Shown: piece after piece, positions 4,807 through 64,000 of the stretch
Numbering within the stretch: the first letter of the stretch is position 1
Layout: each line of letters starts with the position of its first letter
Assembly: GCF_001541095.1 (NCBI RefSeq)
Contig: NZ_LMXH01000004.1
Location: 62,001-126,000 of the forward strand
Length of the DNA: 64,000 nucleotides
Direction of reading: 5' to 3'
Source of the DNA: Paenibacillus sp. FJAT-26967
GTDB lineage: Bacteria; Bacillota; Bacilli; Paenibacillales; NBRC-103111
The notes under the pieces: generated by a model
Database searches by the model: none
Told to the model about the DNA's origin: nothing
What the model saw: only the letters and a program-made list of their open reading frames with translations
Program-made: the position numbers and the translations under genes

Positions 4807-6337
4807 ACTGCTCTATGTTCTTAATCAAATTAAATTGCTATCGCCTCTAGCCTTGTTCCGGCTAATGGCTTCCATATATAAAAATGGAATCAATCTGATG
4901 ACACTTGTTCATTTCTCGGCAAAAAACTATGGGGAACGAATCGCCTTAGTAGACGAGCAGGAAACGCTGACTTATAGCCAGCTCTTTGCGCGATCCGATG
5001 AGCTTTCTTTAAGCTTGAGCCAAGAGTACCGGCTCGAAAGCGGGAAGAAAGTCGGTCTTGTTTGTAAGAATCACGCTTCATTAATTAAAACAATCTATGC
5101 CGTTTCTGCAACGGGAGCGGATATCTATTTGCTGAATGCCGAAATGAGCGAAGCTCAGTTGAGTAGTATTCTTGAGCGTCATCATTTCGACCTCTTGGTT
5201 ATTGATGAAGAACTAAGCTGGCTTGGGCTTGGTGGCGAGCAGTATGCGCATAGGGGAGCGATCCTGATGAGTTATCATCCTACGCTTCCGGCGATCAACA
5301 ACCTGCCTCCGGTAATTTATAACCGTACACAAAAACGAAGCCCCGCCTCTACAGGGAAACTGGTGCTATTAACGGGAGGAACTACAGGTTCCGCTAAGGA
5401 GGCGGCTCATAAGCCCTCGCTTTTTAATTATCTGGACCCCTTCTATGATTTTCTTATTCGATTAAAGATCCTCCACTATCATACTGCGTATATTGCAACG
5501 CCCATCTATCACGGCTATGGAATAGCGGTCTTGCTTTTATTCTGCGCCTTGGGTAAAAAAGTAGTTGTATGTCGTGGATTTAATGCGGAAATGGCATGCC
5601 GCTTGGTTCGGGAGCATCAGGTAGAAGTCGTAACGGTTGTACCGCTTATGCTGCATAGAATGCTGAGAACGAATGTGAGTGATTTGAAATCGCTGGCCTG
5701 CATTGCTTCCGGGGGAGCAGAGCTCAGCCCAAAGCTAGCCCAACAGACATTAAGTCAGTTGGGTGAGGTGCTGTACAATTTGTACGGCACCTCGGAAGCG
5801 GGGTTGAATATGATTGCAACACCACAAGATTTGATCTATTCCGCATGTACGCTAGGACGAAAGATTAAGGGTGTCGACCTTAAAATTCTAGATGATCATA
5901 AGAAAGAAGTTGAGGTTGGAAAAGTCGGTCAATTTTGTATTAAAAACAGGTGGTCTATGAGAAACGGATCTCAGATCTGGATCGAAACCGGGGATCTTGG
6001 TTACCGGGATGAGAACGGCTACTATTATCTATGTGGAAGAACGGACAGTATGATCGTTTCCGCGGGGGAAAATGTGTATCCGCTAGAAGTAGAGCGGGTG
6101 CTGCTGACTCATCCCCAAGTAGAAGACGCGGCTGTTATTGGAATTAGTGACGAGCTTTATGGGCAGCGATTGAAAGCTTTTGTCCTTATGAACCCTCGGG
6201 CCCATACGAATACAGAGGAACTCATCGACTGGCTGCGTCCCCGATTGGCACGATTTCAGCTCCCCAAAGAAATCGTTCTCGTCGACGATTTACCGTATAC
6301 CTCGTTAGGTAAACTGAATAAAAAGCTGCTTACATAG
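4793..6337 (+). CDS. AMP-forming acyl-CoA synthetase/ligase
   Basis: A 514-residue enzyme of the ANL superfamily that activates a carboxylic acid with ATP to an acyl-adenylate and passes it to CoA. The core motifs are in order: LLTGGTTGSAKEA (the phosphate loop, diverged from the common TSGTTGxPKG), LYGTSEAG, TGDLGYRDENGYYYLCGRTD, SAGENVYPLEVE, and the C-terminal catalytic lysine in SLGKLNKKL. The loop carries SAKE where most relatives have PKG, so substrate or kinetics may differ. It starts inside the SDR gene with a 14-bp overlap. A medium or long fatty acid is the likely substrate by family. No acyl carrier protein or condensing enzyme is near. Confidence 0.85.
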   Translation: MKIYKLLYVLNQIKLLSPLALFRLMASIYKNGINLMTLVHFSAKNYGERIALVDEQETLTYSQLFARSDELSLSLSQEYRLESGKKVGLVCKNHASLIKTIYAVSATGADIYLLNAEMSEAQLSSILERHHFDLLVIDEELSWLGLGGEQYAHRGAILMSYHPTLPAINNLPPVIYNRTQKRSPASTGKLVLLTGGTTGSAKEAAHKPSLFNYLDPFYDFLIRLKILHYHTAYIATPIYHGYGIAVLLLFCALGKKVVVCRGFNAEMACRLVREHQVEVVTVVPLMLHRMLRTNVSDLKSLACIASGGAELSPKLAQQTLSQLGEVLYNLYGTSEAGLNMIATPQDLIYSACTLGRKIKGVDLKILDDHKKEVEVGKVGQFCIKNRWSMRNGSQIWIETGDLGYRDENGYYYLCGRTDSMIVSAGENVYPLEVERVLLTHPQVEDAAVIGISDELYGQRLKAFVLMNPRAHTNTEELIDWLRPRLARFQLPKEIVLVDDLPYTSLGKLNKKLLT

Positions 6338-6403
6338 ACTCGTATAAGTGTTCGTCTGCCGTCTGCTTTTTGCCTGGAAGGCATCAGGCTACAAAAAAGG
6401 CAA

Positions 6404-6431
6404 TTGACAAACGAGGCACAGGTGTTATAGC
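6404..6431 (+). promoter_or_regulatory. promoter of the leuA T-box leader
   Basis: TTGACA (6404-6409), 16 bp, then TATAGC (6426-6431), preceded by a TG two bases before the -10 box. It lies about 45-50 bp before the first T-box sequences, the right place for the leader RNA. Confidence 0.55.
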
Positions 6432-6469
6432 ATGGCTTTAATATCCAATACGTTGAAAAGGAATAGTAC

Positions 6470-6732
6470 GCTTTTCTAAGCGCTCAGAGAGCTGTTGGTT
6501 GGTGCGAAACAGCCGCGAGGAAGAATGGAACTCACCTTGGAGTTGCCCGCTGAACCAGTGAAGTAGGCGGAGCCGGAATCCTGACCGTTATCATCAGGAG
6601 GATATGAGGTTACCAGTATGTCCGGGAACCCATATCCGCAGAGTGCATGCCGTCTATGGCGTGAATTCGGAGTGGTACCGCGTAAGATGTCACAGTCTTT
6701 CGTCTCTGTTAATGGAGACGGAAGGCTTTTTT
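6470..6732 (+). ncRNA. leucine-specific T-box leader of leuA
   Basis: The leader RNA senses uncharged tRNA-Leu and lets transcription continue into leuA. The T-box signature GGAGTGGTACCGCG is at about 6669-6682. The terminator stem is at 6696-6725 (CGTCTC with GAGACG as core), followed by six T. Stem I begins near 6476 and its specifier region reads GAACTCACC, giving the codon CTC (6531-6533) for leucine followed by the usual A. The left edge is approximate. A long open frame from 6604 crosses this structure and is not a gene. Confidence 0.9.
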
Positions 6733-52963: not shown

Positions 52964-53923
52964 TCAGCGGCCTTCACGCCGTCTGTTACTGGAAGCGGCA
53001 TAAGCGGCATGGCGGAACTGAAGAATCGGATCATCGGATAAGGCCATCCCTTCCGTTACGGCAGTGGGGTCCATGACCAGTCCCTCGGGCTCTTCTATGT
53101 ACTCGGTGATGTACAAACGGCCGAGGTTAATCCGCTGGCGGTCGTCCGGCCAGGCGCGGGTAGGATCATCCGTAGGATCGCTTTCTTCGCCGAGAATTGC
53201 GGTGAGCTGGAATACGGCAGGCGCATTGTTCAAGCGGAGCCGCAGCTCATCTTCCAAATAATCATCCGGCTGCTTAGCCGCATCCGTAACGGATATAGTG
53301 TGGACGCCATCACCCGGTATCCACTCAAATTTTACAGGTCGTGCGCTTCCTTGGCGGTTCGTCAAAAAGTAAGCATGAATACAGTAATAGTGGCAAGCGG
53401 CGTAGCTGGCAGGAGGCTTCAGGTGTTTTATTGCCAGGAAGCTTTCTTTACTTTCGGAAAAATGCGTCGTGATTTCTTTGAAAAGGTCTATCGGGCCCAG
53501 ATTACCTTCTTGTGCCCGGTGCGCAGCCCGAATCATATCCAGGAACGATTCTGGAGTGCGCGCGAAAAAGACCGGCACCGTAACACCGACCAAATTCGTA
53601 ATGCCGCCGTCCGGCAAAGTGAATTGAACGGCCATTCCCTTAGCCGGAGATAAAGCATCGGCAAGTGCGGGATCGGTGGAGCTGCCCGAGAAGCGGACGA
53701 CTGCCTCTATTTCCTGCTCCTGGAGATGGGGGGCGGTAGTGAGCGCGGCGGCAAGACCACTCGGGCGGAAGACGGCACGGCAGCAGATTCCCTTGGCATG
53801 CGCACGGCGGTAACCGGGATGAGTGCCGGATAAATCCTCGATAGCATCAACTGCTTGTCCTGCGAGGTCTGTTGGTCCCGAATTCAGTGCGGGATGTTCG
53901 TTACTTGGATCGAGCCGGGTCAT
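52964..53923 (-). CDS. small catalase-family haem peroxidase
   Basis: A 319-residue protein of the reduced catalase family (SrpA-like), shorter than clade 1-3 catalases. The distal histidine is in GYRRAHAKGICC; FRPSGLAAALTTAPHLQ, VRFSGSSTDPALADA, KGMAVQF and TNLVGVTVPVFFARTPESF follow in the family order. These enzymes act on peroxides with weak catalase activity or bind haem for other uses. The proximal region near INLGRLYITEYIEEPE is less clear. It stands alone. Confidence 0.8.
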   Translation of the reverse strand: MTRLDPSNEHPALNSGPTDLAGQAVDAIEDLSGTHPGYRRAHAKGICCRAVFRPSGLAAALTTAPHLQEQEIEAVVRFSGSSTDPALADALSPAKGMAVQFTLPDGGITNLVGVTVPVFFARTPESFLDMIRAAHRAQEGNLGPIDLFKEITTHFSESKESFLAIKHLKPPASYAACHYYCIHAYFLTNRQGSARPVKFEWIPGDGVHTISVTDAAKQPDDYLEDELRLRLNNAPAVFQLTAILGEESDPTDDPTRAWPDDRQRINLGRLYITEYIEEPEGLVMDPTAVTEGMALSDDPILQFRHAAYAASSNRRREGR

Positions 53924-54337
53924 AACGGTTTCCTCCTCTTGTCATGTAACACATTTATTTCCGGACGTGCTTTTATCTATACTACCACGGGAGTGCTGGC
54001 TTTAAACTCCAAGAGGCATTTAGGGTTCACGTAAGACAGATACTGGTCATTAAAATTTGGAATTTGCGCAGATGTTTGACGATATGGCTCTTCTGTAAGA
54101 AAGCATCTGAATTGAATATGGCGTATCCGGCCTCGCTGATGATGTCCTTCGATCAGACAAAGCTAGAAAATAATGATACGGCGGCCATTTTCTGTTACGA
54201 TAAAGCGAACAAAACCCGTTTGAGCCGGACGGAACAGCCACAAGAGCAGAAGCCGTAACGATATTATGAATTTGCTGCATGTAAAGAAGTAATCATTGTG
54301 TGTCTAGCTATACATGGAGTTAGGAAGTGCATTATAC
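53924..54337. other. intergenic region, no gene found
   Basis: About 410 bases between the catalase-family gene and the IS-end-like sequence. Short open frames (for example 54064-54258 on the plus strand) have no ribosome binding site and no recognisable product. No terminator or promoter stands out. Confidence 0.4.
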
Positions 54338-54358
54338 GAGGGCTGTCCCAAAAGTCAT
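54338..54358. repeat. solitary IS-end-like sequence, copy 2
   Basis: GAGGGCTGTCCCAAAAGTCAT matches copy 1 at 28278-28297 at nearly all positions. GGGGCAGC about 30 bases later can pair with its GCTGTCCC, followed by TTCTTTTTTAT, so the end may have been reused as a terminator. No transposase is near. Confidence 0.4.
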
Positions 54359-54470
54359 GACAGATGACGGAGGGGCAGCTTCTTTTTTATTTGGATGAAT
54401 AGCATCATGACCTCCCTTTTCTGTTGAAATTTTATACCGGTTTACTTGGTTATTTCCGCTTCCGTCCATT

Positions 54471-54503
54471 GTTCAGAAGTCGTTCAGAGGCTCGGTTTAT
54501 ACT
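54471..54503 (+). promoter_or_regulatory. SLH operon promoter with 11-bp direct repeats
   Basis: GTTCAG occurs at 54471-54476 and again at 54482-54487, 11 bp apart. Ten bases later lies TATACT (54498-54503). There is no recognisable -35 box. The layout is the same as at the hrtBA promoter (GTTCAT, 11-bp spacing, 10 bases, TATACT). An OmpR-family activator is the likely ligand. Confidence 0.6.
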
Positions 54504-54568
54504 TAAGGGTAAACTTCGAGACAAGGATGAGGACAAGCTCTCCATCCAATCATAGGGAGGTCAAGATA

Positions 54569-57500
54569 ATGAATCCGGAATGGAATAAATGGCTTCTAGC
54601 CACTGCAATTTTGAGCATGACAATAGGCTCTGCACCAGTTGGTGCTGCCGGTACTGCGGAACGTACCATACAAAGCGCAATAGGGTTCAGCGATCAAGGG
54701 TCCATATCCCCGGCCAAACGTGCTGCGGTGGAGGAGGCTGTAAAGCAGGGTTTGCTGTCCGGCTATCCGGATGCTTCTTTTCGTCCGAATCAGCTTTTAA
54801 CGAGGCAGGAGCTTGCCGTCTTGTTGGTCAAAGCCCTGCACCTGGAGCCTAAACAGGGGGCATCCTCGTCTTTTGCCGATTTGAAGGATGGCTGGGCAGT
54901 CCCGTATGTCGAGGCTCTAGTCGAAGCGGGTTTGATTAATGGGGATGAATCGAGCAGATATAGACCCTCCGAACCCGTAACTCGCGAAGAATTGGCAGCT
55001 GTGTTCGTCCGGGCGATTAACGGGGTAGATGCCAGAGGCGGGAATGAAGTTATACTGGCCGATGGCAGCAATATTAGCCCTTGGGCGGATAAAGCCGTAA
55101 GTCTGGCCCTGCATCTGGGTCTGATGAATGCGGAGGGTAATGCATTTAATCCTCGCGGAAATGTGGAACGGCAGGATATCGCTGCTTATTTATTAGATAT
55201 TTTCCAAACTCGGGAACAGTCGGCTGCGATTAACCGGATCGATGGAGATATGGTCATCATTGACGGTAAACCGTACTTGATTAGCGGCGCATTGAAAGAC
55301 CTGCTGGGCGAACGGAATCAAGATGCCCTAGAGGGCGCGGTTCTCAAATACAAATCAGTTAATCATAACGTAAATGATCTGTTGCGGATCGAACTTACAA
55401 AAGGCGGAACTGCGGGAAAACCTGCTAAGCTGGATTTAAAAGGTACATCTTTCAAAGGAGAATTAGCTATTGCTGCGGACCATATTGCAGTAGATGGGGA
55501 CTCTCTTACCCAGGTTGTCTTAAAGCCGGGAGCAGGGACACTGGTACTAAATGCAAAGATTGCTCAAGTCTTGGTGGATACCGACAGCCCATTGAAGGTT
55601 GAAGGAAACGGGACGTGGGGAGAACTTAAAATCGCTGATCCGGATGCCAATCTCAAGCTGGGCCCGAATCTGACCATAGATAAGCTGCAAGGACCTGAGG
55701 GAATACCGGCAGATAAGCTGATTGCTAATTATGATGAGGTTAAAAAACAGATTGCAGGCGGGGCTGCCTCTGGCGGGACGCCGGCAACGCCGGGATCTTC
55801 GGGTTCGGGTTCATCTGGTTCATCAGGCTCATCGGATTCCCCCTCTAACAGCAACCGTAACCCGGTGGTTGTGAATGCTCTCGCACCATTGACACATGCA
55901 GTGGATGACGGTCCGAAGACGTTAAGTTTGGCCGGCGTGTTTGCGGATGCGGACGGCGATGTGCTGACGCACACGGCGCTCTCCTCGGATACGGGAGTCG
56001 CGACAGCATCGGTCAGCGGAACGGATCTGACGATCACGCCAGTGAATGCGGGAACGTCCACGATCACGGTAACGGCAGACGATGGTAAAGGCGGCACGAA
56101 GTCTCTGACGTTTATCGTGACCTTTCAGGCCCCGGCCCCGGTGAACGAAGCGCCTGTGATCTCGAACCCGATTTCGAACATCACGGAAAGCGTGACGGCA
56201 GGCGTCCAGACGGTAAGTCTGGCGCGTGTATTCTATGATGCGGACGGCGATGCGCTGACGCACACGGCAGTCTCATCGGATACAGGAGTCGCGACAGTTT
56301 CGGTCAGCGGGACGGATCTGACGATCACGCCAGTGAATGCGGGAACGTCCACGATCACCGTGACGGCAGACGACGGCAAAGGCGGCACGAAGTCTCTGAC
56401 GTTTACCGTGACCTTCCAGGCACCCGCGCCGGTGAACGAAGCGCCTGTGATCTCGAATCCGATTTCCAACCTCACGGAAAGCGTGACGGCAGGCGTCCAG
56501 ACGGTAAGTCTGGCACGTGTATTCTATGATGCGGACGGCGATGCGCTGACGCACACGGCAGGCTCATCGGATACGGGAGTCGCGACAGCATCGGTCAGCG
56601 GAACGGATCTGACGATCACGCCAGTGAATGCGGGAACGTCCACGATCACCGTGACGGCAGACGACGGCAAAGGCGGCACGAAGTCTCTGACGTTTACCGT
56701 GACTTTCCAGGCACCGGCGCCGGTGAACGAGGCGCCCGTGATCTCGAATCCGATTTCCAACCTCACGGAAAGCGTGGCGGCAGGCGTCCAGACGGTAAGA
56801 CTGGCGCGTGTATTCTATGATGCGGACGGCGATGCGCTGACGCACACGGCAGTCTCATCGGATACGGGAGTCGCAACAGCATCGGTCAGCGGAACGGATC
56901 TGACGATCACGCCAGTGAATGCGGGAACGTCCACGATCACGGTGACGGCAGACGATGGCAAAGGCGGCACGAAGTCTCTGACGTTCACTGTGACTTTCCA
57001 GGCCCCGGTGCCGGCAAACGAAGCGCCTGTGATTTCGAACCCGATTTCCAACATCACGGAAAGCGTGACGGCAGGCGTCCAGACGGTAAGTCTGGCACGT
57101 GTATTCTATGATGCGGACGGCGATGCGCTGACGCACACGGCAGTCTCATCGGATACGGGAGTCGCGACAGCATCGGTCAGCGGAACGGATCTGACGATCA
57201 CGCCAGTGAATGCGGGAACGTCCACGATCACGGTAACGGCAGACGATGGTAAAGGCGGCACGAAGTCTCTGACGTTCACTGTGACTTTCCAGGCCCCGGT
57301 GCCGGCAAACGAAGCGCCCGTGATTTCGAATCCGATTTCCAACATCACGGAAAGCGTGACGGCAGGCGTCCAGACGGTAAGTCTGGCGCGTGTATTCTAT
57401 GATGCGGACGGCGATGTGCTGACGCACACGGCGGTCTCATCGGATACGGGAGTCGCAACAGCATCGGTCAGCGGAACGGATCTGACGATCACGCCAGTGA

Positions 57501-58039
57501 ATGCGGGAACGTCCACGATCACCGTGACGGCAGACGATGGCAAAGGCGGTACGAAGTCTCTGACGTTCAATGTAACTATCACGGCTGCTGCTCCGACGGG
57601 ACTTTTCATTTCCGAGACGCTTTATGCGAGCGACGATATCGAATTTGGACTGCAGGCCATAGAACTGTACAACCCGACCAATGAGGATATAGATGGAGAT
57701 AAAGTTAAAATCGTCCGTTCAGACGGCATAGAAGATATTGTTTTGAATAGCCAAACATTGCGGGCGAACTCCACCTTTGTAATTATGGAAGCATTTTATA
57801 GCGGGCCTATTCAATCCGATTTTCCATGGCCGATGATGTTTTATGATGATCCGGCAACACCCGTCCAGCTTTCCCTTTATTATAACGATCAGCTATTGGA
57901 TATCGCTTATATCTATCCTCATCAAACGTTTATAAGAAAAGCAACCGTAACTAAAGGAAACAACACGGCTTACGATGGTGCCGAATGGATCGGCAAAGGA
58001 AAGGATTTTGTGGATGACATCGGAAAATTCAACAAGTAG
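54569..58039 (+). CDS. SLH-domain surface protein with six cadherin/Ig-like repeats and lamin-tail-like end
   Basis: A 1156-residue secreted protein. The signal peptide ends near GAAG. Three SLH domains (about residues 38-92, 99-152 and 163-218) carry the cell-wall-polymer motif as TRQE, TREE and a degenerate ERQD, so it should bind pyruvylated wall polymer. A beta-rich, probably beta-helical stretch follows to 400, then a Gly/Ser linker. Six repeats of 95-97 residues (about 430-1010) resemble cadherin/Ig-like folds with calcium-binding DADGD. The last 150 residues (LFISETLYASDD..AIELYNPTN) look like a lamin-tail domain. GGGAGG precedes the ATG. It has a 17-bp gap to a paralogous partner gene. 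Confidence 0.85.
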   Translation: MNPEWNKWLLATAILSMTIGSAPVGAAGTAERTIQSAIGFSDQGSISPAKRAAVEEAVKQGLLSGYPDASFRPNQLLTRQELAVLLVKALHLEPKQGASSSFADLKDGWAVPYVEALVEAGLINGDESSRYRPSEPVTREELAAVFVRAINGVDARGGNEVILADGSNISPWADKAVSLALHLGLMNAEGNAFNPRGNVERQDIAAYLLDIFQTREQSAAINRIDGDMVIIDGKPYLISGALKDLLGERNQDALEGAVLKYKSVNHNVNDLLRIELTKGGTAGKPAKLDLKGTSFKGELAIAADHIAVDGDSLTQVVLKPGAGTLVLNAKIAQVLVDTDSPLKVEGNGTWGELKIADPDANLKLGPNLTIDKLQGPEGIPADKLIANYDEVKKQIAGGAASGGTPATPGSSGSGSSGSSGSSDSPSNSNRNPVVVNALAPLTHAVDDGPKTLSLAGVFADADGDVLTHTALSSDTGVATASVSGTDLTITPVNAGTSTITVTADDGKGGTKSLTFIVTFQAPAPVNEAPVISNPISNITESVTAGVQTVSLARVFYDADGDALTHTAVSSDTGVATVSVSGTDLTITPVNAGTSTITVTADDGKGGTKSLTFTVTFQAPAPVNEAPVISNPISNLTESVTAGVQTVSLARVFYDADGDALTHTAGSSDTGVATASVSGTDLTITPVNAGTSTITVTADDGKGGTKSLTFTVTFQAPAPVNEAPVISNPISNLTESVAAGVQTVRLARVFYDADGDALTHTAVSSDTGVATASVSGTDLTITPVNAGTSTITVTADDGKGGTKSLTFTVTFQAPVPANEAPVISNPISNITESVTAGVQTVSLARVFYDADGDALTHTAVSSDTGVATASVSGTDLTITPVNAGTSTITVTADDGKGGTKSLTFTVTFQAPVPANEAPVISNPISNITESVTAGVQTVSLARVFYDADGDVLTHTAVSSDTGVATASVSGTDLTITPVNAGTSTITVTADDGKGGTKSLTFNVTITAAAPTGLFISETLYASDDIEFGLQAIELYNPTNEDIDGDKVKIVRSDGIEDIVLNSQTLRANSTFVIMEAFYSGPIQSDFPWPMMFYDDPATPVQLSLYYNDQLLDIAYIYPHQTFIRKATVTKGNNTAYDGAEWIGKGKDFVDDIGKFNK
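55859..57598 (+). repeat. 291-bp tandem repeats inside the first SLH gene
   Basis: Five near-identical units begin at 56144, 56435, 56726, 57017 and 57308, spaced exactly 291 bp (97 codons), after one more diverged 285-bp unit from 55859. Only scattered bases differ between units, so identity is at DNA level and not only protein level. Such arrays expand and contract by recombination and may be misassembled from short reads. Confidence 0.95.
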
Positions 58040-58055
58040 AGCAGGGAGACACACT

Positions 58056-61000
58056 ATGAAATCATCCTCTTTAAAAAACAGCATGCTCGCCGGACTTCTC
58101 GTCACGGCGCTGCTTACTCCTTCGGGAATAAGCAGTGCCGCTGCTTCTCCGGCAAAGTTTTTAGCACAGGGAATTCAGCCGGAGGCATTCCTGGATCTTA
58201 CAACAGTGTCGGCTGATCGATTACAATCCATCCGCAAAGCTCTGGCTCTCGGGCTCCTGGAAGGAGACGGTGAAGGCCAATTCAGACCCGATGATCTGCT
58301 TACACGCCAGGAACTGGCTACCTTGCTGACCAGGGCGCTTCAGTTGTCTATTCCTGACCGGCAAGATTCGTTTAAAGATGTGCAGTCCCAATTGTGGAGC
58401 AGCCCTTACATAGCTGCTGTTAAAGCTGCCGGGATTATGGAAGGGGATGACCTGGGGAAGTTTCGCCCTTATGATGTGATTACCCGCGAAGAGATTGCCG
58501 TTACGCTCGTAAGAGCCTCCCAAATGGCGCTCGAACTCGAGTCGGTTCCTGCTTCCATATCGGATTGGAAGGGTGTCAGCTCCTGGGCGCAAGCTTTTGT
58601 CCGGACAGCATTGGAAGAGGATATTATGTCACCCGAACAGGGCAAATTCGCACCTCAAGAACATGTTCTTCGGGCGGATGTGGCGGAAATGCTGATTTCG
58701 GCATTTTTTCCTACTGACAAGGCATCTGTACTCCAGGATATACAAGGGAATCATGTACGCATCAATGGTGTTACCTACGTACTTTCCGAGCATGTGAAGG
58801 GCATTCTGCAAGAGAGCAACCGAGAGGTATTGCAAGGAGCCAGGCTTAAATTCCGTTTTAAAGGCAGGACTCTGGAAACTCTTACGGATCTGCAGCTCTC
58901 TGCCAAAGGGGATGCTACCCGTGAAGGGGAAGAGGAGTTCAGCCGCAACTTGGTGCTTAATGGTCACGGGGCGGTACTGGACGGTAATTTAACGGTTTCT
59001 GGAGACTATACTTCTATTGCCGATCTAACGGTAAAAGGCAGCCTGCACATCAGCAAGGAATTGCAGAATGATTTCCTGGCCGCCAAACTCATCGTTGAAG
59101 GCAATACAATCATAGACGGCGGGGACCGGAATACCGTTGTTTTTCAAGAATCAAGTCTACAAACGGTTGATGTAAATAAGCAAGATGTTCATGTTATTAC
59201 CAAACAGGGCACGACTGTTCAAACGATGAATGTGAATTCGAATGCATCCATTACGGCAGACGATGCCGCCTTGAGCCAAGTGACACTTGCAAATGGAGCC
59301 CGGGCAGTGGAATTGCAGGGCACTCTTCCTCAAGTCACAGTAACAGCTGTACAACCGGTTGTTTTGAGCGGAGGCTCCAACATCGGTCAGTTAGCGGTGA
59401 ACAGCCCTGTTGAGCTGACGCTGAATGGTACCGGAACCGTGACACAATTGCAGCTTAACAACGCGGATGCAACAGTAATCGTCGGGTCGGACTCTAAGGT
59501 TACGACAGTAGCTGTAACGAATGGAGCATCAGCTTCTTCGGTTAAGAACATGCCACCTGCCTCTTCGACCTCCGGTTCTACCAATAGCCCGCCGAGGTAT
59601 GAGATCCCCATCGCAGATCCCAAGCTATCCGTTGGCGATCCGGCGGTCACGATTGACTTGTCTGCGCATTTCAAGGACTCGGAACAAACGAGTTTGAAAT
59701 TCACGGCCGTTTCTTTAAAAAGCGCGGTGATGAAAGCTTCGATGTCGGGCAACATCTTGACTCTTACGCCTGTCGCCAGAGGAACCGCAACGATTAAAAT
59801 GGGCGCGAATGATTTGAACGGCGGCAACATCAATGCGGATATGGTCGTGACAGTTAACGATCCGCCCAAGGTCAGCAATGTTCCTTTGCCCATGCTGTTA
59901 ACGATAAACCAGGGAGATGGCACACTCGATCTTGCTACGGTCTTCGAAGACGCAGATCAGGATAACCTGACCTATGAGGTGCAGTCGTCTGATCCTTCTA
60001 TTGCCATCGTCAGCGAAAGCGCCGGTCAGTTAACGGTCAAGGCGGTTGCATCGGGCAGTACAGTTATACAGCTCTCGGCTTCAGACGGCAGCAGCTGGAA
60101 AGCATCGACTACCTTTAATGTAGTGGTGAATCAGGCACCGTCGCTGCTTGAGGTTCCGGAGCAGTTCATACAGCTTGGCGGCGGAAACCAGGAGCTGGAC
60201 CTTGCCTCCTATATCAATGATTTGGATAATGATCCGTTTATCGTCACCGCTGAATCGGACTCGCCTGATGTAGCGGGCGTGAGCGTGAGCGGCAGCAAGC
60301 TGACTCTGACCCCGGCTAAGGCGGGACAAGCGAAGATCAGGGTGACCGTCACGGATCAGCGCGGGGGAATTAGCGCAAGGGACATCACAGTTACGGTCAA
60401 TAGGCTTCCGGTTGTGCAGAATCCGCTGACGGACCTTCAATTGACAGTCGGGAATCCGGATGGGACTACGGACCTGTCTACTGTGTTTAAAGACGAAGAT
60501 CAGGATATATTTACTTACGAAGTAAGCTCCAGTAATCCTTCCGTGGCAACGGCTTCAGAGACTGGGGGGCAGTTGAAAGTGCATGCGTTGGCGTCGGGTA
60601 CCGCTACGATTACGGTAAAAGCCAAAGACGGTAAGAACGGAGAGATCATTTCTAGTTTTCAAGTAATCGTAAATGAAGCCCCCTTGCTCTCCACTATACC
60701 GGTACAGTATTTGCAGCTTGGAGCGCCCGTACAGGAACTGGATCTGAGTCCGTATGTACAGGACCCGGAAAATGATACTTGGAGCTTTACCGTAGATTCA
60801 TTGTCAGACCCCATTATCAATGTGAACAGCAAAGCTGGAACTTCTAAGCTGATGCTGACACCTGTTGCCGCAGGGAAGACGGAAGTCAGGCTTTCCTTCC
60901 ATGATAGCCGTGGCGGCATAACGCAAGGAATTGTTTACGTAGAAGTCAATACAGCGCCGGTAGTCGCACAGCAGGTTTCCAATTTAGTGGTAACAGCCGG

Positions 61001-63935
61001 TCAGACGCCTGGTGTAGTGGATCTTGGTCCTGCATTTACAGATGCCGATCAGGATACTTTAACCTACGAGGTGATATCTTCTCACCCTGCTCTGGCTATA
61101 GGAACTGAAGCCGGCGGCCTGCTGTCGGTCAAGGGCCTGGCTCCTGGTATGGCTACGATTACAGTTAAAGCCAAGGATGGAAGGGGCGGCGAGGCGAGCA
61201 TGAGCTTCGGCGTCGAGGTGAATGCAGCACCCGCGATATCAGCCATACCGGAGCAGTTGATTCAACTGGCCGGATCGCCGCTGGAGCTTGATTTGCTGCC
61301 CTATATTCAGGATCTTGAGCATGATGGTATGACCTTGCAGGCGGTTACGAACAATACGACTCTTGCATCCGTTCAAGTGGACGGCTTCAAGTTGACGATT
61401 TCCCCCGTTAATGCCGGGCTTGCTCAAATAAACGTAACAGTTACGGACAGCCGTGGCGGACAATCAAAGGCTAGCTTTGTAGTGAGAATCAACTCAGCCC
61501 CCTCACTGACCCAGCAGTTTGGGCCGCAGGCTCTGACGGCAGGTCAGCAGGATGGCATAACGGATCTGTCGGTTATGTTCACGGATCCGGATGTGGACCC
61601 GCTGACATACAGCGCAGTGTCATCCGATCCGTCTATTGTGACGGTTCAGGAATCCGGAGGAATCCTGAGAACGCATGCCGTAGCATCCGGAACGGCAACG
61701 ATAAGTGTAACAGCTTCTGACGGCCGTGGAGGACATACGGATTCATCGTTCACTGTGGTGGTGAATGAGGCGCCGGACGTTACTACGATTCCTTTACAAA
61801 AGCTGGCCCTGCCGGGAAGCCCGCGAATCCTTGATCTATCAAGTTATTTGTCCGATAAGGAGCAGGATACGCTAAGCGTAACAGATATCACGTATGACCA
61901 GACTATCGCATCGCTTTCAATAAATGATCTGCAGTTGACTATGACTCCGCTTAGTCTCGGCGAAACGACTGTGACCATGTCTGTCTATGACAGTCGTGGA
62001 GGTACTACCCAATCCTCTTTCCGCTTGAAGGTGACACTTCCGAATCAGAGTCCGGTCGTTCAACAGCCGATGGCTCCTTCAGTTCTAACGGTAGGTCAGC
62101 CTGACAGCATCTTGAATCTGGATGCGATTTTCTCTGACCCCGATCTGGACAGCACGTTGACGTACGAGGTCAGCTCAAGTGATCCGTCGGTCGCCACGGC
62201 AGTTGTTGCAGGCAACCAAATGACTGTACAGGCAGTTGCTTCAGGCAATGCGGATATCACGCTTAAAGCCAGTGACGGAGAAGGAGGGGAGGTCACTTCG
62301 ATATGGAAGGTGACGGTTAACGAGCCTCCGGTTATCAGTCCGATTGCCAGTCCCGTTATCTGGATGCATGAAGGAGATCAAGAACTTGATCTGACTGCCT
62401 TTATATCCGATCCGGATGCGGGGGATATTCCGAATCTGTCCATTTCTGCAATCTCATCTGCTGCCGACAAGGCTTCGGTTGTGGTATCCGGCAAGAAGCT
62501 GACCATCAAGCCGGAGGCGCCGGGAACCGCGCAGATCGAGCTTACGGTGAAAGACGGACGCGGCGGCAAAACGACCGCCAGCCTGACGGTCACAATCAAG
62601 CAGAATAAGCCTCCGCAGATTACGGCAATCCCGGAGCAGGTTGTGAAAGTGGGCGACATCCAGAACGTCGACTTGTCGCCTTATCTGTCAGATCCGGATC
62701 CGGAGGATACACAAAGCTTGACGGTTTCTATCTCCGCACAGCCGGATCAAAGCGTAGCCAGTGTGAGTATAACCGGCAAGACGTTGACCATCGTCCCTGT
62801 ATCGACAGGCAAGACGTCTGTGCAGCTTACTGTAAGCGATGGCCGTGGCGGCACGGCGGCAGCCAACGTGGCGATTACAGTCAACCCGGCTAAGGTCAAC
62901 GCTGCACCGTCGGCTGTAAGCATGATTTATGAGCAGGTGCTCACACCGGGAGTCACCAACGCCCGTACGTTTGACTTGAGCCAGTTGTTCAGCGACCCGG
63001 ACGGTGATCCGCTCACGTTCACGGCGGTCTCTGCCTCCGGGGCGGCAGCGGCTGCATCCGTAGCCGGCGACATGCTGACGCTGACACCAGGCACAGGAAG
63101 CGGCAGTACGAAGGTCACGATAACTGCTGACGATGGCAATGGAGGCACGGGAACTTACGAGTTAACGGTCAGGACTGCACAGCTAGTGGCGAATGGGCAG
63201 ATCAACGTGACAACCAAGCAGGGTGTCAAGGAAGCTGTAACCTACGATCTGTCTGCGCTGTTCCCGAATCAAACCAGCTTCAAAATCTACGAAGGGACAC
63301 CGGACTCCACATTTACGGGTCCGACTGAACTTAACGGCAAAACTTTGACGCTGCTAAACCCGAATCTCGGTTTGTATACCTGGGTTGTAGGTGCCGATGG
63401 CCGCGCGGCTGTTTTTCAGTTCTCTTCCAAAACGCAGGGGACACCTGAGCGGTTTTTCTCCGAATACATGGACGGCGGGGATGGAAGAATTGCTCTGGAG
63501 GTCAGCTATTCCGGCACAGGCGACCCTACCGCAGCGATGAAAGGCTATACAATCGAGGTCCATCAGTACATGAAGAAGACTCAACAGAAGAAAGTGTACT
63601 CGAAGGCTCTTTTTGAGCAATACGTGGATCCGTATATTTTTATTGATACTATCTTCTATGATGCAATGGATCTTACGAATATTACGTATTTTAATGATGA
63701 GCTCTCCATATATAATCCGAGCGAGTTTAATACCGTAGCCTTGGTGCTGAAAAGAAACGGTCAGGTCGTGGATGTACTGGGCGACCCGAATTCTACGGCT
63801 CAGTTTATGCCAAGCGGCGGAACGCTGGTACGCAAATCAGGCATTTACACCGGATCTGCCGCATTTTCCCAGTATGGGGAATGGAACACCCATCCGAAGG
63901 GATCTTATCAATATTTAGGAAGCCATACGAAGTAA
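58056..63935 (+). CDS. giant SLH-domain surface protein with 13 alternating Ig-like repeats and lamin-tail end
   Basis: A 1959-residue secreted protein, paralogous to its upstream neighbour. A signal peptide (LAGLLVTALLTPSGISSAAA) is followed by three SLH domains (wall-binding motifs TRQE, TREE, LRAD), a beta-helical-looking stretch with LNGHGAVLDGNLTVSGDY, then 13 repeats of about 90 residues. These alternate between two subtypes (TDLSxxFxDxDxDxLTYE and LDLSxYxxDxExD), each ending in a GRGG-type turn. Unlike in the neighbour, the DNA of the repeats is well diverged. The end (FFSEYMDGGDGRIALEVSY, VVDVLGDPNS) is a lamin-tail domain. AGGGAG precedes the ATG. Confidence 0.87.
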   Translation: MKSSSLKNSMLAGLLVTALLTPSGISSAAASPAKFLAQGIQPEAFLDLTTVSADRLQSIRKALALGLLEGDGEGQFRPDDLLTRQELATLLTRALQLSIPDRQDSFKDVQSQLWSSPYIAAVKAAGIMEGDDLGKFRPYDVITREEIAVTLVRASQMALELESVPASISDWKGVSSWAQAFVRTALEEDIMSPEQGKFAPQEHVLRADVAEMLISAFFPTDKASVLQDIQGNHVRINGVTYVLSEHVKGILQESNREVLQGARLKFRFKGRTLETLTDLQLSAKGDATREGEEEFSRNLVLNGHGAVLDGNLTVSGDYTSIADLTVKGSLHISKELQNDFLAAKLIVEGNTIIDGGDRNTVVFQESSLQTVDVNKQDVHVITKQGTTVQTMNVNSNASITADDAALSQVTLANGARAVELQGTLPQVTVTAVQPVVLSGGSNIGQLAVNSPVELTLNGTGTVTQLQLNNADATVIVGSDSKVTTVAVTNGASASSVKNMPPASSTSGSTNSPPRYEIPIADPKLSVGDPAVTIDLSAHFKDSEQTSLKFTAVSLKSAVMKASMSGNILTLTPVARGTATIKMGANDLNGGNINADMVVTVNDPPKVSNVPLPMLLTINQGDGTLDLATVFEDADQDNLTYEVQSSDPSIAIVSESAGQLTVKAVASGSTVIQLSASDGSSWKASTTFNVVVNQAPSLLEVPEQFIQLGGGNQELDLASYINDLDNDPFIVTAESDSPDVAGVSVSGSKLTLTPAKAGQAKIRVTVTDQRGGISARDITVTVNRLPVVQNPLTDLQLTVGNPDGTTDLSTVFKDEDQDIFTYEVSSSNPSVATASETGGQLKVHALASGTATITVKAKDGKNGEIISSFQVIVNEAPLLSTIPVQYLQLGAPVQELDLSPYVQDPENDTWSFTVDSLSDPIINVNSKAGTSKLMLTPVAAGKTEVRLSFHDSRGGITQGIVYVEVNTAPVVAQQVSNLVVTAGQTPGVVDLGPAFTDADQDTLTYEVISSHPALAIGTEAGGLLSVKGLAPGMATITVKAKDGRGGEASMSFGVEVNAAPAISAIPEQLIQLAGSPLELDLLPYIQDLEHDGMTLQAVTNNTTLASVQVDGFKLTISPVNAGLAQINVTVTDSRGGQSKASFVVRINSAPSLTQQFGPQALTAGQQDGITDLSVMFTDPDVDPLTYSAVSSDPSIVTVQESGGILRTHAVASGTATISVTASDGRGGHTDSSFTVVVNEAPDVTTIPLQKLALPGSPRILDLSSYLSDKEQDTLSVTDITYDQTIASLSINDLQLTMTPLSLGETTVTMSVYDSRGGTTQSSFRLKVTLPNQSPVVQQPMAPSVLTVGQPDSILNLDAIFSDPDLDSTLTYEVSSSDPSVATAVVAGNQMTVQAVASGNADITLKASDGEGGEVTSIWKVTVNEPPVISPIASPVIWMHEGDQELDLTAFISDPDAGDIPNLSISAISSAADKASVVVSGKKLTIKPEAPGTAQIELTVKDGRGGKTTASLTVTIKQNKPPQITAIPEQVVKVGDIQNVDLSPYLSDPDPEDTQSLTVSISAQPDQSVASVSITGKTLTIVPVSTGKTSVQLTVSDGRGGTAAANVAITVNPAKVNAAPSAVSMIYEQVLTPGVTNARTFDLSQLFSDPDGDPLTFTAVSASGAAAAASVAGDMLTLTPGTGSGSTKVTITADDGNGGTGTYELTVRTAQLVANGQINVTTKQGVKEAVTYDLSALFPNQTSFKIYEGTPDSTFTGPTELNGKTLTLLNPNLGLYTWVVGADGRAAVFQFSSKTQGTPERFFSEYMDGGDGRIALEVSYSGTGDPTAAMKGYTIEVHQYMKKTQQKKVYSKALFEQYVDPYIFIDTIFYDAMDLTNITYFNDELSIYNPSEFNTVALVLKRNGQVVDVLGDPNSTAQFMPSGGTLVRKSGIYTGSAAFSQYGEWNTHPKGSYQYLGSHTK

Positions 63936-63951
63936 GAATGAGCAGAGCTTC

Positions 63952-63999
63952 AGCTCCTGAAAGGCACTGGGTCCAACGGCCCGGCTCCTTTTAGGAGCT
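63952..63999 (+). terminator. terminator of the SLH operon, cut at the window end
   Basis: AGCTCCT (63952-63958) pairs with AGGAGCT (63993-63999), with GAAAGG/CCTTTT and GGG/CCC inside. The expected T-run would lie beyond the window. Confidence 0.65.
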
Positions 64000-64000
64000 T

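Follow-up and report, generated by a model that had tools for sequence, protein, structure and literature searches.

ChiW of Paenibacillus sp. FPU-7 consists of SLH domains, a CBM-54 beta-helix, a GS-rich loop, Ig domains and a GH18 domain, and its structure is deposited as PDB 5gzt (PMC5132251). ChiW is cut between Asn282 and Ser283, with Asp262 nearby, and the two parts remain bound, whilst the authors leave the involvement of a protease open (PMC5132251). Lamin-tail domains (LTDs), filed in Pfam as PF00932, are found in bacterial proteins such as the ExeM nuclease. DNA binding is one published view on these domains (PMC4486849) and an anchoring role has been proposed in Planctomycetes (PMC6461901), whilst a further report describes direction to the membrane and a slight influence on the activity of the nuclease (PMC6085458). 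In the same report ExeM without its LTD still degraded DNA in vivo (PMC6085458), suggesting that an LTD can be a minor accessory. In cellulosome-type systems cohesin and dockerin domains with SLH anchors hold a glycoside hydrolase cargo, and tandem-95 and Big_9 repeat proteins are recorded in NCBIfam. Here a pair of adjacent Paenibacillus genes, A and B, is compared with these systems on evidence that is computational throughout.

Gene layout and domain plan

The window, which is the whole stretch of 64,000 nucleotides analysed (C13:62001-126000 within a 5.46-Mb genome), carries genes A (1156 aa) and B (1959 aa) on the same strand, with a 16-nt gap between the stop of A and the start of B (Table 1). 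Longer starts were listed by the ORF caller at TTG 54446 for A and ATG 57975 for B, but these are less likely because the Shine-Dalgarno-like GGGAGG and GGGAG sit right before the two ATGs. With this spacing and a terminator-like site 3' of B, A and B form a predicted two-gene unit. No Rfam element was found within window positions 53000-64000.

A gene for a 319-aa catalase-family protein (PF00199, 2.4e-31; window 52964-53923, minus strand) adjoins gene A in the opposite orientation, and this neighbour is also kept in Paenibacillus lutrae (L019), the nearest named relative among the loci compared (95% over the B tip). The segment at window 54325-54410 was taken by eye to resemble a mobile-element end and has one other partial match in the genome (C13:52328-52371, 80% over about 45 bases). 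Genome-wide, 94 SLH-domain matches were above cut-off, corresponding to some tens of SLH proteins. A shared operon containing an enzyme was considered and rejected, recurrent flanking genes being mainly confined to one genus or species group.

Table 1. Positions in the window of genes A and B, their domains and nearby signals
Feature	Position	Strand	Evidence
Shine-Dalgarno-like GGGAGG of gene A	54555..54560	+	sequence
Gene A: signal peptide (by eye), SLH x3, beta-helix, Gly/Ser-rich linker, Ig x6, lamin-tail-type C-terminus	54569..58039	+	Pfam and profiles
A: three SLH domains	54701..55198	+	Pfam PF00395 1.8e-30; phmmer to SLH part of S-layer protein Sap, 3pyw, 5.9e-13
A: short beta-helix lacking the cleavage-motif block	55214..55750	+	profile-profile match to B helix, 99.8% over 174 columns
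A: Gly/Ser-rich linker	55751..55852	+	sequence
A: six Ig/cadherin-like repeats, 97 aa each, inner ones near-identical	55853..57577	+	Pfam, profiles, DNA repeat
A: C-terminal lamin-tail-type domain	57596..58036	+	profile match to bacterial LTD 98.3%; Pfam LTD under the cut-off, at 24.8 bits
Shine-Dalgarno-like GGGAG of gene B, inside the A-B gap	58044..58048	+	sequence
Gene B: signal peptide (by eye), SLH x3, beta-helix, linker, Ig x13 and one degenerate Ig-like domain, divergent lamin-tail-type C-terminus	58056..63935	+	
B: three SLH domains	58188..58700	+	Pfam PF00395 4.3e-26; 3pyw 7.1e-15
B: right-handed beta-helix, ChiW CBM-54-like	58728..59549	+	AlphaFold2 pLDDT 90.8; 5gzt_B Z 13.5; hmmsearch best match 5gzt_A, E 0.0059
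B: motif GGDRNTV, residues 355-361; predicted cleavage Asn359/Thr360	59118..59138	+	sequence comparison
B: thirteen diverged Ig/tandem-95 repeats; units 2, 4, 6, 8 and 10 of one subtype	59586..63188	+	Pfam, NCBIfam, profiles
B: degenerate Ig-like domain preceding the tip	63189..63425	+	AlphaFold2; VIA-align Z up to 6.3 to Ig folds, mostly model residues 9-93
B: C-terminal tip, a divergent member of the lamin-tail superfamily; conserved loop of its own, FYDxFD..Y.N.D	63426..63932	+	profiles, AlphaFold2
Terminator-like stem-loop after B, T tail running beyond the window end	63983..63999	+	sequence

An earlier note on this DNA had described two adjacent paralogues, each with SLH domains, a beta-helix, Ig repeats and a lamin-tail-type end. 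The ORFs lie as it described, and Pfam places three SLH stretches in each protein (PF00395; 105.1 bits in A, 91.0 bits in B) together with Ig-type domains (Big_9 at 3.6e-43 and 3.4e-48 in A and B, plus Cadherin_5). The linker is Gly/Ser-rich in A and short and Ser-rich in B. No cohesin or dockerin domain was found by Pfam in A or B, in which the pair itself differs from cellulosome-type systems, and no nuclease domain was found in either protein by the same means. The LTD of ExeM-type proteins sits with a nuclease, whereas the tips of A and B cap a stalk with no nuclease adjoining.

Stalks, tips and conservation of the pair

Profiles made for this analysis gave Ig counts of six for A and 13 for B, the same stalk lengths as had been read from the sequence earlier. 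The A array is a tandem repeat at the DNA level (291 bp x 5.6, 95% matches). The tandem-95 model NF012211 (cut-off 90 bits) includes B, at 113.5 bits, and not A, at 76.3 bits; the repeats of A and B are of the same type as those of NCBIfam tandem-95/Big_9 proteins, a generic stalk module that does not define the A/B system. Between the window and P. lutrae the 13 units of B are positional orthologues, with DNA identities of 91-98% on the diagonal and 50-64% elsewhere. The inner units of A have no positional match in this comparison (about 0.89-0.93 to all) and the unit count changes from six in the window to five in P. lutrae, indicating that the A array is turning over whilst the B array is fixed. 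Whether stalk lengths vary across relatives had been put forward for checking, and they do vary. In L126 (7013-11052; G245) B is split into two ORFs within the stalk, through either a real frameshift or an assembly error, and L199 (Paenibacillus sp. BJ-4) appears to be the same contig.

The A tip of the window scored below the PF00932 cut-off of 34.3 bits (24.8 bits, or 28.3 in the genome search) and the B tip gave no match, and these tips are therefore not filed as PF00932 members. Profile comparison with bacterial LTDs gave 98.3% (E 2.6e-14) for the A tip and 93.4% (E 2.5e-7) for the B tip, against 0.1-5.2% for six control profiles, and the two tip profiles matched each other at 98.2% (E 4e-14). 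By similarity to curated bacterial LTD profiles, both tips thus belong to the lamin tail superfamily. A-tip matches in several pair genomes exceed the Pfam LTD cut-off, for example at 51.9 bits in G127, and weak B-tip matches coincide with PF00932 matches over the cut-off in G106, G110, G114, G117 and G121. Relative to PF00932 LTDs the B tip carries an extra conserved loop.

The B tip was predicted as a confident beta-sandwich (AlphaFold2, pLDDT 91.6 for a model that includes the preceding Ig-like domain). A fold search with this model returned generic Ig/FN3 matches, mostly on the preceding domain, with no lamin tail among the matches listed, and this absence is no evidence against a lamin-tail fold. 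Membership of the lamin-tail superfamily is a conclusion from sequence profiles, since the fold search gave generic Ig/FN3 folds. A solved relative of the tips was also sought, but the best PDB sequence matches were unconvincing, at E 0.2 and 0.34 for the two tip alignments. The lamin-tail end named in the earlier note therefore stands as a profile similarity of both tips and falls short at the Pfam cut-off, whilst the structure prediction that it had suggested for the C-terminus yielded for the B tip a beta-sandwich that the fold search did not assign to lamin tails in particular.

Among 45 B proteins the tip was the most conserved domain, with a median identity of 54.7% compared with 41.6% for the SLH part and 42.0% for the helix, exceeding the SLH part in 34 and the helix in 37 of them. 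The median for the A tip was 37.0%, under the 46.6% of the SLH part (32 A proteins); all these medians leave out the window, P. lutrae (L019, L184) and repeated named loci. It is therefore the B tip that stays constant, and A looks like an accessory.

Within 392 genomes drawn from the order, the A tip was found in 34 and the B tip in 74. In 31 of the 34 genomes with an A tip, the next gene downstream of A is of B type and has the same orientation, and the gaps were mostly -4 to 104 nt, so that the expected keeping together of the pair in relatives was borne out. The exceptions were G095, in which both genes are on separate contigs and that of B ends within B, G185, in which A and B are both present and not adjacent, and G130, in which a weak A-tip match falls in a different protein. 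The partner of A in G271 is B-type by its N-terminus; its C-terminal end lies beyond the sequence compared, and the B-tip matches listed include none at this place. L144 (G271, 5596-6722) also holds two short ORFs, with fragments of SLH-Ig and of a B-type tip, that resemble a decayed second copy. Five genomes represent the genus of the window, two with the pair and three with B alone, and single-gene hybrids joining the N-terminal half of A to a B tip were found in L146, L147, L149 and L153.

The strict order and tight spacing of the genes and the homology of the tips would be expected of a heterodimer in which the A and B tips stand side by side. The number of Ig units is nevertheless greater in B than in A in all 31 complete distinct pairs (medians 3 for A and 7 for B; L039, L198 and L201 with A cut, L126/L199 with B split, L143 with B cut and repeated loci were left out), which argues against such an arrangement, although L201 is a partial exception, with 15 units or more in its incomplete A and 13 in B. 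The Spearman and Wilcoxon values computed for these pairs make no correction for common ancestry. As B alone is also common, we consider a heterodimer quite improbable. Equal twins were likewise not favoured, given the unequal stalks and the frequent occurrence of B without A. The suggestion that the two are equivalent thus gave way to an unequal pair, in which B has the conserved tip and a ChiW-like cleavage site absent from A and occurs without it; that a stalk presents a terminal lamin-tail-type domain, as a linked pair, was supported.

The beta-helix of B and its predicted self-cleavage

Residues 213-515 of B, aligned with 24 relatives, gave a confident beta-helix model (AlphaFold2, pLDDT 90.8, pTM 0.87). 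Of 611 PDB chains compared with this model, 106 reached a Z of 8 or more, and the top rows had Z values of 9.9 to 13.8 and are for the most part beta-helix proteins. ChiW (5gzt_B) was the second structural match, with Z 13.5, an rmsd of 3.6 over 160 residues and 15% identity; Foldseek alone gave no match to the model at E <= 0.001. The best PDB match of the sequence profile of the B helix was the N-terminal fragment of ChiW (5gzt_A, hmmsearch E 0.0059), and the HMMER alignment stops at the last residue of this fragment, which is the cleavage Asn of ChiW.

A right-handed beta-helix between the SLH domains and the linker, as in a CBM-54 of the ChiW type, is thus present in B, and from the fold and these matches it follows that the order of SLH, helix, linker and Ig is the plan of ChiW, with a like helix fold, similar domain boundaries and a cleavage neighbourhood aligned up to the cleavage Asn. 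The four-part plan had been called uncommon, a description that does not hold for its first three parts, which are those reported for ChiW (PMC5132251). ChiW has a GH18 domain where A and B instead have a long Ig stalk and a lamin-tail-type tip, and it is the tip and the long stalk that set the pair apart from the ChiW plan. The beta-helix of A is supported through profile homology to that of B (99.8-99.9%), in an alignment with a gap exactly over the block that bears the motif.

In the alignment with ChiW, Asn359/Thr360 of B fall at the cleavage site and Asp339 takes the place of Asp262. Asp339, Gly355, Gly356, Thr360 and Lys375 are invariant in all 25 sequences of the helix alignment, these counts spanning every sequence in it, and residue 359 is Asn in 19, Asp in five and His in one. 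The Thr-form expression GG[DS]x[NDH]T[VI], picked after the ChiW alignment had been seen, occurs in 47/47 distinct B proteins, 0/34 A proteins and none of five distinct proteins that join an A helix to a B tip. The ChiW motif G-G-G-X-[NQDH]-S-[VI] occurs in 0/113 proteins, a count that includes repeated loci; GGDxNT of B differs from GGGxxS of ChiW at two positions (GGD, and T for S).

From this comparison the B helix is predicted to self-cleave between Asn359 and Thr360, after which a non-covalent clasp would keep stalk and tip attached to the SLH stub, as in ChiW. The motif might instead be merely a structural turn of the beta-helix with no cleavage, a serious possibility, if the lesser one, and one consistent with the changes of GGG to GGD and of S to T and with the view of the ChiW authors that most conserved residues around the site serve helix stability (PMC5132251). 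The nucleophile of C. difficile CwpV is however a Thr, as noted in the same paper (PMC5132251), both Thr360 and the Asp262 equivalent are among the invariant residues, and the motif block is absent from A as one unit, all of which argue for cleavage. Such a clasp is not required for a B tip, because the helix hybrids lack the motif.

Anchors of the B-type tip and proposed working

The B-type tip subtype was found in Paenibacillus, Tumebacillus, Cohnella, Brevibacillus, Bacillus, Domibacillus, Metabacillus and Clostridium records. The 55 named loci comprise 16 A+B pairs, 12 single tip proteins with SLH domains and 16 dockerin-tip proteins that have a cohesin gene next to them or close by, the rest being one dockerin-tip protein without cohesin (L210), one tip protein with a cohesin neighbour and no dockerin found (L233), eight tip proteins in which an anchor was not detected (some truncated where the contig stops) and one unreadable locus. 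SLH domains are within the tip protein itself in 28 of the 55 (the L199 gene being split). When all loci are taken without repeats there are 21 dockerin-tip proteins, 20 of them with a cohesin gene in the same stretch. Pfam detected Dockerin_1 in 21/21 of these proteins and Cohesin in 21/21 cohesin-labelled neighbours, of which 20 partner dockerin-tip proteins and the other is that of L233; 14 have SLH domains and three an LPXTG motif. This confirmation by Pfam was in full for dockerin and cohesin and for sampled proteins in other domains. Architectures and Ig counts derive from our own profiles, with few seeds and E 0.01, so that an isolated weak label, such as IG preceding DOC, is uncertain.

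In L049, L045, L214 and L236 (four Pfam tables) residues 115-192 hold the dockerin and the tip is C-terminal, so the polarity of anchor, stalk and tip is the same in the dockerin form, which occurs outside the window. By these domain assignments the tip is kept while anchors are exchanged, and its conservation on an anchor of another, plug-and-socket kind suggests that the function of these proteins resides in it. The use of Dockerin_1 with neighbouring Cohesin-SLH or Cohesin-LPXTG proteins recalls the cellulosome, but the cargo here is an Ig stalk and LTD, usually with one cohesin. Three dockerin proteins, one with a B-type tip, precede a protein with two cohesins and three SLH domains in Domibacillus enclensis (L214:8600-18895), making a small scaffold without a recognised enzyme. 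A B-type tip follows six Shr-like haemoglobin-interacting-type domains in Brevibacillus fluminis (L232:7934-10477).

SLH domains bind secondary wall polymer. A and B would be exported and attached through their SLH trimers to this polymer, and the Ig stalk may project the tip some tens of nanometres. The B tip would then bind a conserved extracellular ligand such as a matrix polymer, a glycan or another cell, which would make B adhesin-like, and A would be a shorter, faster-changing accessory, nearly always alongside B. We lean, by a little, towards this reading of A and B as secreted, wall-anchored surface fibres with a ligand-binding B tip, an accessory A and a self-cleaved B helix.

Tips that serve as docking or assembly modules, holding enzymes, S-layer or matrix proteins or contacting the envelope, would accord with the proposals that LTDs direct proteins to membrane-associated structures (PMC6085458, PMC6461901) and with LTDs that adjoin nuclease and phosphatase modules, as also here in a 2688-aa protein with LTD, endonuclease/phosphatase, metallophosphatase, 5'-nucleotidase and SLH domains (L053:376-8442; G030). 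In either anchor design, however, the tip sits at the opposite end of the protein from the anchor and points outwards, and the Pfam families listed for A and B, together with 25 of 27 for the 21 dockerin proteins, included no recognised catalytic domain, making docking rather unlikely. More doubtful still is a nucleic-acid role of the tip in binding extracellular DNA, which the presence of LTDs in secreted DNases and ExeM would recommend (PMC4486849, PMC6085458); the lack of a nuclease domain in A and B and the dispensability of the LTD of ExeM noted above both speak against it.

Searches of the available literature on lamin tails with SLH or dockerin domains, on CBM-54 cleavage and on cohesin-dockerin in Paenibacillus and Cohnella found no description of the A/B pair or of the dockerin form. 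Within the fibre reading we offer, as a tentative idea with the balance against it, that the B-type tip may be the business end of a widespread Bacillota fibre joined non-covalently to its anchor by two unrelated routes, a self-cleaved helix clasp with a Thr nucleophile and a cohesin-dockerin plug. If so, both routes would provide a joint, detachable or load-limited, between the tip and its wall anchor, though not a universal one, because the five helix hybrids lack the motif. B is a candidate for a Thr-dependent self-cleaving beta-helix for which gene A, in the same operon, provides an uncut natural control, and the relatives point to cohesin-dockerin pairs used without a recognisable enzyme. 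To our knowledge bacterial lamin-tail domains have no settled role, and the conservation of one subtype as the tip of a long fibre, with the anchor swapped, would make the question of that role testable.
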